Assembly: GCA_019240115.1 (NCBI GenBank)
Contig: JAFAYV010000004.1
Coordinates: 1-33,608 of the forward strand
DNA length: 33,608 nucleotides
Direction of reading: 5' to 3'
Source of the DNA: Solirubrobacterales bacterium
Lineage (GTDB): Bacteria > Actinomycetota > Thermoleophilia > Solirubrobacterales > Solirubrobacteraceae
Part shown: one piece after another, positions 1 through 6,237 of the stretch
Layout: every line of letters starts with the position of its first letter
Numbering within the stretch: the first letter of the stretch is position 1
Position numbers and translations under genes: made by a program
Notes under the pieces: generated by a model
Told to the model about the DNA's origin: nothing
What the model saw: only the letters and a program-made list of their open reading frames with translations
The model's database searches: none

Positions 1-1526
1 CCGCCGAACCCGCCGCCGCCGAACCCGCCGCCGCCGAACCCGCGCCCGCCGCCGAGCGTCCCGGAGCTGCCCGCGCTCGAGCTCGTCGTGCTCGTCCCGA
101 GCGCCGGGAGCGTCTCGGTGACGATGACCTGGTCGCCGGCCCGCAGCCCGCTGGCGATGATCGTCCGCGAGTCGCCGGTGATCCCGGTGACCACCGGGGT
201 GGACACCGTCCTGCCGTTCTCGTCCTGCTGGACGGTGGCGGTCCCGCCGCTCGTGCTGACCGCGCTGCTGGGCACGTTGACGCCGGACCTCTGGGCGGTG
301 ATGATCGACGCCTCGGCGCTCATGCCCGGCTTGACCTGCGGGTTGCCCTGGTCGAGCGTCAGGGTCACGTCGTAGCTGACGACGCCCGAGCTCTCGGTGC
401 CCACGGTCGAGACCGAGCTGACGTGCGCGGCCAGTTCGACGCCGGTGAGCGCCTCCATCGTCACCGTCGCGGCCTGGCCCACCCGGACCTGGGCGATGTC
501 GGACTCGCTGAGCGGCACGACCATCGTCAGCGGGCGGGTGTTCACGATCTCGACCAGTCCGCCGCTCGTAGACGAGGAGCCGCTCGCGGAGCCCAGCGAG
601 CCCGCCGTGGAGGAGCCGGCGCCGGCGCTCGACCCGCCTGAGCCCGAGCTCGAGCCACTCGACGCGCCTGAGCCCGAGCTCGAGCCGCTCGAACCCGCGC
701 CCGAGCCGCCGCCGCCCGACGACGAGCTGCCGCTGCCCGACGAGGCCCCGCTGTTGCCCGAGGAGGTGCCGCTGACGGCCTCGCCGGGCGAGATCGACTC
801 GAGCGACGCCACCGTTCCGCTCGCCGGCGCGTACAGCCGGGTCTCGTCGAGCACCTTCTGGGCGCTGGTGACGTTCGCCTGGGCGCCGTCGACGGACGCC
901 TGCGCCGAGGCGACGGCGCCTGCCTGGGAGGCCTGGGTTGCCGCGGTGTCCTGGGTCGTCGTTGTCGTGGGGGTCGTCGTGGCGGTCTTGCTGCCCGATC
1001 CGGAGCCACTCGTGGCGCCCGATCCGGGGGAGCTGGGCGAGCTCGAGGCGCCTGCAGAGGAGCTGGGCGAGCTCGAGGCGCTTCCCGATCCCGAGGTCGT
1101 CGAGGTCGTCGAGGTCGAGGTGGTCGCGGCCGCCTGTGCGTCCTGCGCGCTGGTCAGCTGGTCCTGCGCCGCGGTGAGGCTCTGCTGCGCCTGGTCGAGC
1201 GTCGCCTGCGCCGCGGACGGGTCCAGCGTGGCGAGCAGCTGGCCGGCCGCGACGTGCTGGCCGACCTTGACGTCGATGTTCTGCAGCGTGCCGGTCGTCT
1301 GAAAGTTGACTGTGTCGTCGGTGGAGGGCTCGACGTTGCCGCTGCCCGACACCGTCGACTGGACGACTCCGTTCGCGGCGGTGACGATCTCGTGCGACCT
1401 CCGGCTCGAACGCGTGGGCGGGCCGAGCGTGAGCGCCGCCGCGACGGCGACGCCGACCGCCGCCAGCGCGATCAGCAGCAGTGGCCACGCGGAGCGGATG
1501 CGGCTTCGCGGCCGGGTCGGTGCCAT
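1..1526 (-). CDS. MacA/HlyD-like efflux periplasmic-adaptor-type protein (partial, C-terminus off the left edge)
   Basis: This is a membrane-anchored adaptor of the RND/ABC (MacA/HlyD) class, expected to couple an ABC exporter to export across the envelope. About 508 residues are visible. They show a transmembrane anchor (about 14-34), the first lipoyl half (74-103, VKVGQHVAAGQLLATLD), a coiled-coil hairpin (104-230), the second lipoyl half (231-256, LYAPASGTVASLESISPGE), a beta-barrel (about 323-395) and a membrane-proximal domain (about 410-470). Two low-complexity inserts are unusual: a Ser/Thr/Pro stretch at the hairpin tip (133-197) and a Ser/Gly stretch (251-322). The visible end is a Gly-Phe repeat (GFGGGG). 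The ATG at 1526 has GGTGAG just upstream; an in-frame GTG at 1535 is an alternative. It lies 33 bp after the sensor kinase, so it is very likely co-transcribed. ABC ATPase and permease genes would be expected beyond the left edge. Confidence 0.88.
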   Translation of the reverse strand, partial: MAPTRPRSRIRSAWPLLLIALAAVGVAVAAALTLGPPTRSSRRSHEIVTAANGVVQSTVSGSGNVEPSTDDTVNFQTTGTLQNIDVKVGQHVAAGQLLATLDPSAAQATLDQAQQSLTAAQDQLTSAQDAQAAATTSTSTTSTTSGSGSASSSPSSSAGASSSPSSPGSGATSGSGSGSKTATTTPTTTTTQDTAATQASQAGAVASAQASVDGAQANVTSAQKVLDETRLYAPASGTVASLESISPGEAVSGTSSGNSGASSGSGSSSSGGGGSGAGSSGSSSGSGASSGSSSGSGGSSAGAGSSTAGSLGSASGSSSTSGGLVEIVNTRPLTMVVPLSESDIAQVRVGQAATVTMEALTGVELAAHVSSVSTVGTESSGVVSYDVTLTLDQGNPQVKPGMSAEASIITAQRSGVNVPSSAVSTSGGTATVQQDENGRTVSTPVVTGITGDSRTIIASGLRAGDQVIVTETLPALGTSTTSSSAGSSGTLGGGRGFGGGGFGGGGFG

Positions 1527-1559: not shown

Positions 1560-3035
1560 CTAAGAGTCGGACGTGAGGAGGCTGGGACTTTCCTGAGAGG
1601 CCGCGGCCGTCTCGGCCGCCGGTAGCTCGAGTACGAACGCCGCGCCGCCGCCCGGCGCGTTCTGCGCGTGGATCGTGCCGCCGTGCGCCCGTGCGATCTC
1701 CCGCGCGATCGCCAGGCCCAGACCCGCGCCGCCCCGGCCGCGCCGCCGGCCACGCTCGTTGTGCCAGAACCGCTCGAACAGCTGCTCGGGATCGCCGGCG
1801 GGCAGGCCACCGCCGTGGTCGCGGACCTCGCATACGGCCGTCTGCTCGTGCTGGAGCACGCACAGCTCGACCGGGGTGCCTGGCGGCGTGTGGATGACCG
1901 CGTTGCGCGCGAGGTTGCCGAGCGCGCGGTGAAGCTGCTCGCGATCGCCCATGACGGTCACCTCCTCGGTGACGTGCACGCTCACGTCGCGGTCGGCGGC
2001 GATCGCGCGGGTGTCCTGCGCGACCTGCTCGGTCAGGCGCCGCAGCGCCAGCGGCTCGCGTCGCGGCGCGCGCTCCTCGTCGAGCCGCGCGAGCACGAGC
2101 AGCTCCTCCACGAGCGCGCCCATGCGCGCCGACTCGGCTTCGATTCGCGCCAGCGTGCGTGCCAGCGCCTCGGGATCCTCCGTCGTGGCGCCGATGCGAA
2201 ACAGCTCCGCGTAGCCGCGGATCGCCGCCAGCGGCGTACGCAGCTCGTGCGAGACGTCGGCGAGGAAGCGGCGCAGGCGTTCCTCGCTGCGCTGGCGGTC
2301 GACGAACGCCTGCTCGATCCGGCCGAGCATCTCGTTGAGCGAGCGGGCGAGCCGGCCGACCTCGGTGCGTCCGTCCGGGGGCTCGACGCGGCGGGACAGG
2401 TCGCCGCTGGCGATCTCCGACGCGACTCGGCCGATCCGGGTGAGCGGGCGCAGGCCGATCGTGATCACCACCCAACCGAGCGCCACCATCGCGAGCAGCA
2501 GCCCGCCCGCGGCGATCGCCTCCACCGCGATCAGCCGTCGCAGCGTCTGCTCGGCCTCGGTGATCGGGACGGCGGCGATCAGCGTGTCGCCGTGCTCGCT
2601 GACCGCTGCCGCCCGATAGTGCGTCCCGTCCCGCGCGCTCACGTCGAAGAGGTGCAGCGTGGCGCGTGTGGAGCTCGCCGGCGGCTCGGCGGGGAGTCGC
2701 GGCGGGGGGCCGGCGTGCCCGCCATAGGTGAACGTCTCGCGCTCAAGCACCCGGCCGGCCCGGTCGCGCACCTCCCCGTAGGTGCCCGGCGGCAGCTGGG
2801 CGTGCGCTGCCAGCGTGCCCGGAGGGTGGCCGGGGGAGCCGGGGGCGCCGTCGCGCCGGCGCTGCTCGAAGGCGAGCGGGAACAGCGCCGAGCGCACCTG
2901 CCGGTCGACCCGATGAAGCAGGAACGACCGCTGCTCCAGGTAGGTGACCGTCGCCGCCGCGGCCAGGCCGGCGGCGACGAGCGCGACCATCCCCACGAGC
3001 AGCCGCGCCCGGAGCGAGAGGGCCGGCATCGTCAT
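1560..3035 (-). CDS. Sensor histidine kinase (HAMP-HisKA-HATPase)
   Basis: Membrane sensor kinase of 491 aa, partner of the OmpR-type regulator encoded just upstream. TM1 is at about 10-30, followed by an extracytoplasmic sensor segment of about 135 residues and TM2 at about 168-193. The HAMP linker follows (195-247). The dimerisation/phosphoacceptor domain has DVSHELRTP with His263. The ATPase domain has the N box (NLARNAV, about 374-380), the G1 box DHGGG (406-410) and the G2 box GAGLG (436-440). Its ATG overlaps the regulator's stop by 4 bp (ATGA), so the two are translationally coupled. The last codons contain a copy of a putative operator (1582-1597) that would lie upstream of the adaptor gene. 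The C-terminal tail beyond residue 473 is not part of the kinase fold, so it is free to carry this DNA signal. The ligand is unknown. Confidence 0.95.
   Translation of the reverse strand: MTMPALSLRARLLVGMVALVAAGLAAAATVTYLEQRSFLLHRVDRQVRSALFPLAFEQRRRDGAPGSPGHPPGTLAAHAQLPPGTYGEVRDRAGRVLERETFTYGGHAGPPPRLPAEPPASSTRATLHLFDVSARDGTHYRAAAVSEHGDTLIAAVPITEAEQTLRRLIAVEAIAAGGLLLAMVALGWVVITIGLRPLTRIGRVASEIASGDLSRRVEPPDGRTEVGRLARSLNEMLGRIEQAFVDRQRSEERLRRFLADVSHELRTPLAAIRGYAELFRIGATTEDPEALARTLARIEAESARMGALVEELLVLARLDEERAPRREPLALRRLTEQVAQDTRAIAADRDVSVHVTEEVTVMGDREQLHRALGNLARNAVIHTPPGTPVELCVLQHEQTAVCEVRDHGGGLPAGDPEQLFERFWHNERGRRRGRGGAGLGLAIAREIARAHGGTIHAQNAPGGGAAFVLELPAAETAAASQESPSLLTSDS
1582..1597 (-). promoter_or_regulatory. 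Putative response-regulator operator, copy 2
   Basis: Read on the minus strand this is CTCAGGAAAGTCCCAG. It matches the sequence in front of the regulator gene (3759-3774) at 15 of 16 bases. It sits inside the 3' end of the kinase gene, 56 bp upstream of the adaptor ATG, where an internal promoter for the export genes would be useful. That it is an operator is inferred from the duplication and from its positions. Confidence 0.5.
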
Positions 3036-3718
3036 CGCGGCGGCAGCTTCAGCGCATAGCCGACGCCGCGCACGGTGTGGAGCAGCGGGGGCCCCGGCCC
3101 GACGGCCAGCTTGCGTCGCAGATAGCTGATGTAGGTCTCCAGCACCCGCGCGTCGCCGCCGAAGTCATAGCTCCACACATGGTCAAGCAGCTGGGCGCGC
3201 GTGAGCGCACGGCGCGGGTTGCTCATCATGTAGCGCAGCAGCCGGTACTCGGTCGGCGTGAGATGCAGCGGCTGGCCCGCCCGGGTCACCTCTCGCGCGT
3301 CATCGTCCAGAACGATGTCGGCGAACGTCAGCACGCTCGGCGCCGCGACGCCGCTGTTCCCGCGTCGGAGCATGTTGCGCACCCGCGCGATCAGCTCCTC
3401 GAGACTGAACGGCTTGGTCACGTAGTCGTCGCCGCCGGTCGTCAGCCCGCGCACCTTGTCGGCCGTCGTCCCCCGCGCGCTGAGATAGAGGATCGGCACG
3501 CTGGCGCCCTCGGTCGCGATCGCACGCGCGACGTCGAACCCCTCCATGTCGGGCAGCATCACGTCCAACACCATCGCGTGCGGGTGCCAGTCACGAACCC
3601 GCGCCAGCGCGACGGCACCCGTTTCGGCGCTCAGAACGTCGTAGCCGTGGTGGCGCAGCGCCATCGAGACGACATCGACGATGCTCGGCTCGTCGTCGAC
3701 GACCAGCACCCGGGGCAT
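3032..3718 (-). CDS. OmpR/PhoB-family response regulator
   Basis: Two-component DNA-binding regulator of 228 aa. The receiver domain has the acidic pair D8-D9, the phosphoacceptor D52 (MVLDVMLP), S80 (ILYLSA) and K102 (VTKPF). The C-terminal winged helix shows LTPTEYRLLRYMMSNPRR, then the recognition-helix region ending in the LETYISYLRRKL and TVRGVGY motifs. The frame is open to an ATG at 3790. I prefer the ATG at 3718, which starts MPRVLVVDDEP, is preceded by GGCGAG, and gives the usual family length; the longer start adds 24 arginine-rich residues with no family match. It is first in an operon with the kinase (4-bp overlap) and the adaptor. It probably regulates itself through the site at 3759-3774. 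Confidence 0.95.
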   Translation of the reverse strand: MPRVLVVDDEPSIVDVVSMALRHHGYDVLSAETGAVALARVRDWHPHAMVLDVMLPDMEGFDVARAIATEGASVPILYLSARGTTADKVRGLTTGGDDYVTKPFSLEELIARVRNMLRRGNSGVAAPSVLTFADIVLDDDAREVTRAGQPLHLTPTEYRLLRYMMSNPRRALTRAQLLDHVWSYDFGGDARVLETYISYLRRKLAVGPGPPLLHTVRGVGYALKLPPR

Positions 3719-3758
3719 CTCGCCGCCCGGCTCCACGTTGTCATGGTGTCGCCGTCGC

Positions 3759-3774
3759 CTGGGAGTTTCCTGAG
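3759..3774 (-). promoter_or_regulatory. Putative response-regulator operator, copy 1
   Basis: Minus-strand sequence CTCAGGAAACTCCCAG, 41 bp upstream of the preferred regulator start. It contains two related half-sites (CTCAG and CTCCCAG) on one face, as expected for the tandem binding of OmpR-family proteins. The near-identical copy at 1582-1597 supports a regulatory role. This is an inference; no binding data are available. Confidence 0.5.
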
Positions 3775-3960
3775 CGTCAGGTGAGAACAACCGAAGAGGG
3801 CCGGCCAGCAGCTGGGGGCGGGCGGACGCGGCGCCGAGCTCGACTACGCTGACTTACGGTTCGTTCACCAAGTCGTTAGCTGTCCGATGCGAGCGGGGGC
3901 AGACTCGTGAGCGGGAGAGGTGACTGCTCAGGCCCGCCGGCGACCCTGGAGGTAGCAACG

Positions 3961-6237
3961 ATGGCCACGACGTCGAAACCTTCCGTCCGTACGGGGCCTG
4001 CCGTCGTCACTCGCGCACGTTTGAGGTCGCTCGTCACCGGGCGTCCGGAGGACCCGTGGTGGTCGCGCCCCGGGCTCATCGCGGTGGGGGCGCTCGCCGG
4101 TGGGCTCGTCTTCTGGGCGCTGACGGTGAGCGGCTACGCCAACTCCTGGTATGCCGATGCCGCGCTCGCGGCGAGCCGGAGCTGGAAGGCGTTCTTTGAC
4201 AACGCGGCGGATCTCAGCGGCGTGGTCACGCTCGACAAGGGACCGTTGTCGGACTGGATGATGGGCCTGTCCGGGCGGATCCTCGGGTTCAGCTCGTTCA
4301 GCATGCTGTTGCCCGATGCGCTGTGCGGGGTCGCTTCCGTGGTGCTCTTGCACAACGTCGTGCGCCGGACCCTCGGGCACCGGGCGGCGCTGCTCGCCGC
4401 GCTGACGCTCGCGCTGTCGCCGGTGAGCGTCGTGATGGCCCGCTACAACAATCCCGACGCGCTGCTCGCCCTGCTGCTCGTCGCCGCCGCCTGGGCGCTC
4501 GTCCGCGCGATCGAGTCGGGGCGCCTGCGCCACATCCTGCTGTGCGGTGCGTTCGTCGGTTTGGCGTTCAACACGAAGATGCTCGAGGCCTACATCATCG
4601 TGCCGGGTCTTGCCGTCGCGTTCCTGATCGCGAGCCGGGGTGGCCTGCGGCGGCGCATCGGCCATCTGCTCGCCGGCGGCGTGGTCATGATCGTCGTGAG
4701 CTTCGCGTGGTTCGGGACGATGATGCTGATCCCGGCGGCGAGCCGGCCGTTCGTCGACAGCACGACGAACGACTCGTGGTTCTCGCTTATCTTTGGCTAC
4801 AACGGGCTGTCGCGCCTGACCGGGGGCGGCCGGGGCGGGTTCGGCGGCGCGGGAGCGGGTCGACGGCTCAGCGGCGGGGCGCAGGAGCTGTTCGGCGGCC
4901 GGCACTTCGGCGCGGGCGGGTTCGGGGGGTTGCGAAGCTCGACCGGACTGACCCGCCTGTTCACCGGCGCCGATGTCGGCGGTCAGATCGGCTGGCTGCT
5001 CTTGTTTGCGCTCGCCGGGCTGATCGCCGGCCTGTGGGCGACGCGGCGGGCGGCGCGCGAGGACCGGGCACGGGCCGCGTATGTCATGTCGGGCCTGTGG
5101 GCGCTGGCGGGCTTTGTCGTGTTCAGCTTCGCGCAGGGCACGTTCCATCCCTATTACACGAGCGCGATGGCGCCCGCCGTCGCGGTGCTGGCCGGCGGCG
5201 GCGCGGTCCTGCTGTTCGATCGCGCCCGCACCGGCTGGGGCTGGGCGGCGGCGCTCGCCGCAGCCGTGGCCGCGACGGCGGTCGTGAGCTTCCTGCTCCT
5301 GGGCGATACGCCGTCGTTCATCCCGTGGTTGCGCTGGGCGGTGCTCGCCGCGGGCGCGCTCTCGGTGCTCGCCGTCCTCCTGCTCGGGGCGGGCCTTCAC
5401 CGCTCGAGCTCATCCGGTGGGCGCCGCTCGCGCCGAGCGGTGTTCGCGCTGGCGCTCGGCGGCAGCCTGGTGGCACTGCTCGCCGGTCCCACCGCCTACT
5501 CGATCGCCACGCTCGGGCACGGGCAGACCGGGAGCAATCCGGCCGCCGGCCCGGCGAGCGCCGTCGCGGCGGGCGGCTTCGGTCGCGCCTCTCAGACCGC
5601 CGGCGACCTCGCACCGAGCTCTGCCGCCGCACGCGGCGGTGCGGCCGGTGACGTGACGAGCAGAGCCCTCGTTGACTATCTCGTGGCCCACCGCGACGGG
5701 GCGAGGTACCTGGTCGCCGCGACCGGCTCACAGACGGCCGCGCCGATCGCGCTGGCGACCGGCGACCCGGTGATCACCATGGGCGGCTTCATGGGCTCCA
5801 CTCCGGCGCCGACCGTGCCCCAGCTCCGGGCGTTCATCGCCAAGGGCGAGCTTCGCTACGTGATCGTCGGCGGAGGGTTCGGTGGCTTCGGCGGGTTCGG
5901 TCAAGGCTCGGCGGGCCCTGGCGGGTCCGGCGGCGATGTCGGCGGCCGTCCGAGCGGTGGGTCCAGCGGGGCGAGTCTGGGTCTGAGCGAGCTGTTCGGC
6001 TCGCCCGACCACGACGGCGGCGGGTTCGCCGGCGGCGCGAGATCGAGCGCGACGACGGCGCTGACGGCATGGGTGAGGTCAAGCTGCCAGGCCGTCACGG
6101 TTCCCGGCTACTCGACGTCGCCGAGCGCGTCGGCCGGCGCCGGCTCGACCGGTGGCGGCGGCGCCAGCACGACGCGCGGCCGGGCGGGCGGCAGCCTGTA
6201 CCTGTGCACTCGGGCAGACGCCACCGGTGCGCCGTAG
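3961..6237 (+). CDS. Family 39 (ArnT/PMT-like) membrane glycosyltransferase
   Basis: Polytopic transferase of 758 aa from the polyprenyl-phosphate-sugar-dependent GT-C fold. It is expected to move a lipid-linked sugar onto an extracytoplasmic acceptor. After a cytoplasmic N-terminus and TM1 comes the first outer loop with SWYADAALAAS and TLDKGPLSDW, typical of the family and carrying the likely catalytic Asp. About a dozen hydrophobic helices follow. A glycine-rich insert (GGGRGGFGG, roughly residues 283-325) lies in an outer loop. The C-terminal soluble domain (LVDYLVAHRDGARYLVAATGS onward) contains more GFGG runs and ends with a Cys pair (SSCQAV and LYLCTR). The frame is open from GTG 3907, but ATG 3961 has GGAGGT at ideal spacing, so I start there. 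It is divergent from the two-component operon and convergent with 6278-6670. Acceptor and sugar are unknown. Confidence 0.9.
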   Translation: MATTSKPSVRTGPAVVTRARLRSLVTGRPEDPWWSRPGLIAVGALAGGLVFWALTVSGYANSWYADAALAASRSWKAFFDNAADLSGVVTLDKGPLSDWMMGLSGRILGFSSFSMLLPDALCGVASVVLLHNVVRRTLGHRAALLAALTLALSPVSVVMARYNNPDALLALLLVAAAWALVRAIESGRLRHILLCGAFVGLAFNTKMLEAYIIVPGLAVAFLIASRGGLRRRIGHLLAGGVVMIVVSFAWFGTMMLIPAASRPFVDSTTNDSWFSLIFGYNGLSRLTGGGRGGFGGAGAGRRLSGGAQELFGGRHFGAGGFGGLRSSTGLTRLFTGADVGGQIGWLLLFALAGLIAGLWATRRAAREDRARAAYVMSGLWALAGFVVFSFAQGTFHPYYTSAMAPAVAVLAGGGAVLLFDRARTGWGWAAALAAAVAATAVVSFLLLGDTPSFIPWLRWAVLAAGALSVLAVLLLGAGLHRSSSSGGRRSRRAVFALALGGSLVALLAGPTAYSIATLGHGQTGSNPAAGPASAVAAGGFGRASQTAGDLAPSSAAARGGAAGDVTSRALVDYLVAHRDGARYLVAATGSQTAAPIALATGDPVITMGGFMGSTPAPTVPQLRAFIAKGELRYVIVGGGFGGFGGFGQGSAGPGGSGGDVGGRPSGGSSGASLGLSELFGSPDHDGGGFAGGARSSATTALTAWVRSSCQAVTVPGYSTSPSASAGAGSTGGGGASTTRGRAGGSLYLCTRADATGAP

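Follow-up and report, generated by a model that had tools for sequence, protein, structure and literature searches.

Three genes at one end of the window (the whole stretch of DNA that was analysed, 33,608 nucleotides long) share the minus strand as their coding strand. The first encodes a PhoP-like response regulator (3032–3736, minus strand) with a Response_reg domain (PF00072, 92.3 bits) and a Trans_reg_C domain (PF00486, 94.8 bits), both above cut-off. With its receiver and its C-terminal winged-helix Trans_reg_C domain this protein is a member of the OmpR/PhoB family; it scored 219.9 bits against the PhoB equivalog TIGR02154 and so did not reach that model's cut-off of 296.2. The second gene encodes a sensor histidine kinase with HAMP, HisKA and HATPase_c domains in Pfam (1560–3035, minus strand). 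The third encodes a periplasmic adaptor of the HlyD/RND_mfp type, starting at GTG 1535 and incomplete at the contig end (3–1535, minus strand; HlyD_3, and TIGR01730 RND_mfp above cut-off). A very long low-complexity stretch rich in Ser, Gly and Thr (560–1140, minus strand) separates the lipoyl part of this adaptor from its barrel part, and the adaptor of one close relative (L040) is similar in this respect.

Two 16-mers on the minus strand, box A (CTCAGGAAACTCCCAG, 3774–3759) ahead of the regulator gene and box B (CTCAGGAAAGTCCCAG, 1597–1582) ahead of the adaptor gene, differ by a single mismatch at position 10. Direct sequence comparison bears out the sequence-only reading on both of its observations, namely that near-identical 16-mers one base apart occur at these positions and that the second copy lies within the terminal part of the kinase gene. 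Box B is wholly contained in the reading frame 1560–3035, past the last residue of the HATPase domain (474 of 491) and 46 nt ahead of the adaptor GTG at 1535. When up to three mismatches were allowed, two matches were found in the 33.6 kb window against 0.19 expected from shuffles, and no further copy within one mismatch was found elsewhere in the 4.03-Mb genome.

The boxes are direct repeats of the form CTCAG-N6-CYCAG (CTCAG-N6-CCCAG in both window copies) with a period of 11 bp, which is about one helix turn. The sequence-only reading had missed that every 16-mer consists of two half-sites with this spacing, and also that a -10-like hexamer stands behind each 16-mer at the distance that is fixed in the family. 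Scored with a matrix built from orthologous loci without the window, box A reached 25.1 bits and box B 24.0 bits. The third-best site in the window scored only 11.3 and is an extra half-site of the box A operator: a weaker unit, CTCAC, that precedes box A by 11 bp (3781–3785, minus strand; matrix match at 3785), at a position where many relatives have CACAG or CCCAG. The predicted -10 hexamer of box A, CACCAT (3743–3748, minus strand), begins 10 nt past the box, at the spacing of the GATAAT-like columns of the orthologues. With direct half-sites about 11 bp apart and a predicted -10 element fixed 10 nt away, CTCAG-N6-CCCAG has the layout of a tandem operator of the OmpR/PhoB type.

To characterise the conservation of box A, we compared the regions upstream of orthologous regulator genes (57–73% identity), which came from 87 of the 232 genomes of the order; many of these genomes are fragmentary and the orthologues are not mutually independent. 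After two truncated regulator genes (L051 and L247) were omitted from 84 rows, 82 upstream regions were usable, and 68 of them contained a half-site pair matching at 8 or more of 10 positions. Across all 84 rows, this threshold gave 70 matches versus 17 for reversed sequence and 23 on the opposite strand, and a threshold of at least 9 positions gave 46 versus 2 and 9, respectively. The orthologous loci share a common geometry: the box, 10 nt, a GATAAT-like -10 element, 6 nt and the start codon. In the GATAAT columns, 10–15 nt past the box, the G is present in 52/68 loci, the A in 55/68 and the last T in 54/68. An in-frame start codon lies 22 nt past the box in 39/68 orthologues and 20–25 nt past it in 56/68. 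In the window's own genome, a box with a -10 element at the family spacing occurs once, at box A. Related boxes (e.g., CACAG-N6-CACAG) are also often found upstream of the regulator genes of distant actinobacterial relatives (47–57% identity). Tandem boxes with CACAG or CTCAG half-sites and an 11-bp period precede a PhoP-like regulator gene in many other actinobacteria (L074–L153).

The start codon is located 6 nt behind the -10 element in 39/68 orthologues and in the window, from which a leaderless mRNA is predicted. Leaderless mRNAs are common in the actinobacterium P. acnes, where GTG starts are frequent (PMC3848588). Judging by the box-to-start distance of the orthologues, GTG 3736 is a more plausible regulator start than ATG 3718, which on this reading would be an internal methionine.

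We searched for a counterpart of box B by scanning the kinase end and the following 260 bp of orthologous loci with the matrix of the upstream boxes. A second site scoring at least 9 was identified in 27 of 77 orthologues, compared with one in the reversed control and one in the opposite-strand control. The boxes of the window and of L040 lie just outside the scanned stretch, and their addition brings the count to 29/77. The second box is often a four-unit array situated at or past the kinase end, and the additional units keep the 11-bp register: the match to CTCAG is 2.45 at +22 and 2.72 at +33, versus 1.34 and 1.23, respectively, in neighbouring registers. A NANNNT hexamer occurs at offset 48 from the box start in 20/29 second sites, which places the last unit of the array again 10 nt from a -10 element, and an ATG occurs at offset 60 in 9 of the 29; a minor group of sites has a spacing that is one repeat shorter. 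The array in the window runs from 1597 to 1560 as CTCAG, CCCAG, CACGT (1575–1571, weak) and CTTAG (1564–1560), so that units 3 and 4 occupy 1560–1575 on the minus strand in the 11-bp register. It is followed, 10 nt past unit 4 and at offset 48, by the predicted internal-promoter -10 hexamer CACCGT (1549–1544). The adaptor GTG at 1535 lies at offset 62, 8 nt past this hexamer.

Across the relatives, the distance of the second box to the kinase stop codon ranges from -63 to +166, and in twelve of them the box begins within the kinase gene, in differing frames. The spacing from the second box to the downstream start codon is fixed. The combination of a fixed distance to the next start with a variable distance to the kinase stop indicates that the second box is conserved as DNA and not as protein. 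More generally, an operator hidden in a coding region can be recognised in this way, by a conserved distance to the next gene rather than to the gene that hosts it.

The regulator's closest solved relatives by sequence are the Mycobacterium tuberculosis PhoP chains (258 bits), followed by PrrA (179 bits). PhoP recognises TCACAGC-N4-TCACAGC as a dimer arranged head to tail; the spacer is strict, and arrays of three and four repeats are bound more tightly (PMC4832192). The sites described here resemble those of PhoP in their 11-bp period, their head-to-tail half-sites and their three- and four-unit arrays, and differ in the half-site itself, which is CTCAGG or CCCAGG in place of TCACAGC. An alignment of the two proteins revealed that the base-contacting residues Val213, Glu215, Tyr217 and Tyr220 and the wing residue Arg237 of PhoP are retained in the regulator, whereas Asn212 is replaced by Arg and Ser216 by Thr. 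The altered recognition residues and the different half-site rule out a PhoP orthologue in the strict sense. The Arg and Thr pair is present in 83 compared proteins, where the half-site has T or C as its third base in 91/116; in Asn-type relatives from other actinobacteria this base is A in 25/40. As a lead only, the altered helix may read the altered third base, since the two groups are also separated by descent. A literature search found no published work on the regulator's clade.

Likenesses to other systems are more limited. Like the pho box of PhoB, the boxes form a direct-repeat operator that covers the -35 position and lies near the -10 element; they differ from it in half-site sequence and in the predicted leaderless start, and the regulator is below the PhoB equivalog cut-off. 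As with the actinobacterial MprA and CutR, the two-component system is found beside envelope or protein-quality genes, an HtrA-like protease gene following the second box in one relative (L212). The published motifs of these regulators (TKTTAAGAAM for C. glutamicum MprA and TAWATAAA for CutR) differ from CTCAG-N6-CYCAG, which rules out motif identity with either. A literature search for the literal box motif, and for CTCAG together with MprA, returned no match.

We propose that the 16-mers are very probably operators of the adjacent PhoP-like regulator, through which it would activate both its own operon and an internal promoter for the adaptor gene. The sequence-only reading had suggested a self-regulating operator plus an internal promoter for the export genes, and the comparative data support both parts: in homologous operons the 16-mer type recurs before the regulator gene in 68/82 loci and after the kinase gene in 29/77. 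The same layout is seen in dozens of related bacteria, which suggests that the switch probably activates its own expression as well as that of its target. Under this model, the adjacent kinase would phosphorylate the regulator, which would then bind CTCAG-N6-CYCAG as a head-to-tail tandem dimer. This dimer would, at box A, take the place of the -35 element, 10 nt from the -10 element, where it could contact and recruit RNA polymerase; the predicted product is a leaderless regulator-kinase mRNA beginning at or beside GTG 3736, amounting to positive autoregulation. The four-unit array at box B would be loaded with the regulator, its last unit lying 10 nt from the second -10 element, and transcription of the adaptor gene and whatever comes next would begin from the internal promoter at GTG 1535 or close to it.

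Several observations count against this proposal. The window hexamers CACCAT and CACCGT match GATAAT poorly. In the array at box B, CACGT makes a weak third unit, and the adaptor begins at offset 62 instead of 60. No second box was seen in approximately 60% of orthologues, and the adaptor is the apparent target in one relative only. Finally, the autoregulatory site of M. tuberculosis PhoP is reported to lie downstream of +1, whereas box A is upstream of the promoter.

The same operators could act with the opposite sign, the regulator blocking the -35 region and repressing one or both promoters, which at box A would constitute negative autoregulation. A box at this position can also keep polymerase out, and the sign of regulation is unreadable from sequence. 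We nevertheless consider repression unlikely: in dozens of genomes the box replaces any recognisable -35 element and is fixed 10 nt from the -10 element, a layout that corresponds to class II activation, which has been modelled for PhoB and suggested for PhoP at lipF and pks2.

It is also conceivable that the boxes are read by another OmpR-family regulator of the cell, as the genome encodes several and binding by the adjacent one is only predicted. This is highly improbable, given that the box follows the orthologues of the adjacent regulator across the order and resembles the site of its closest characterised relative, PhoP. Furthermore, no box was found upstream of the 18 other OmpR-family regulators that exceed the family cut-off in the genome, where upstream scores were at most 5.6 compared with 25.1 for box A. 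A further reading would make box B a stretch of kinase coding sequence that is simply conserved, or a repetition of box A that arose by chance. In its favour, the box has the same kinase frame in the window and L040, which would allow joint inheritance. The likelihood of this reading is nevertheless negligible: among the relatives the second box lies between 63 nt upstream and 166 nt downstream of the kinase stop with the next-start distance kept, box B scores 24.0 by the window-free matrix, and the genome has no other copy within one mismatch.

In the window's own genome, a pattern restricted to the half-sites matched 20 times versus 21 times in the control, and because of this lack of excess we do not claim a wider regulon; unlike for PhoP, these own-genome pattern searches gave no sign of a large regulon. 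The weaker genome matches (L003, L057 and L069) have no -10 element at the right spacing. Across the 232 genomes of the order, 33 boxes of the exact type were found versus one for the reversed pattern, and approximately half of them are at the regulator locus. Exact-type boxes at other loci (e.g., G106:C1:1621562, G180:C1:1832590 and G181:C1:919785) are possible further targets of the regulator in relatives.

The genes behind the second box encode a GT2/GtrA glycosyltransferase, a PMT-type mannosyltransferase, an HtrA-like protease, a PepSY protein, an NRPS-like enzyme or an adaptor, the efflux adaptor being found only in the window genome and L040. Most of these have envelope or secretion functions, suggesting that the system likely responds to an envelope-related signal. 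A broader account, to which we give an even chance, is that a PhoP-like clade with Arg and Thr at the Asn212 and Ser216 positions recognises a half-site of its own and drives two mostly leaderless types of promoter, an autoregulatory one with two to three units and a target one with four. The target promoter would be fixed before whichever envelope gene follows the kinase gene, such that targets are exchanged and the switch is retained. For this clade, the analysis provides a concrete predicted operator, two predicted promoters and a revised start for the regulator gene, and regulator targets in related genomes might be predicted from the layout. In several relatives the array is also present on the opposite strand, where it would serve a divergent glycosyltransferase or mannosyltransferase gene. 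The window likewise has a divergent PMT/YkcB-like mannosyltransferase gene (3907–6237, plus strand); no box is present on its side (the best site scores -3.5), so the gene may have dropped out of the regulon.
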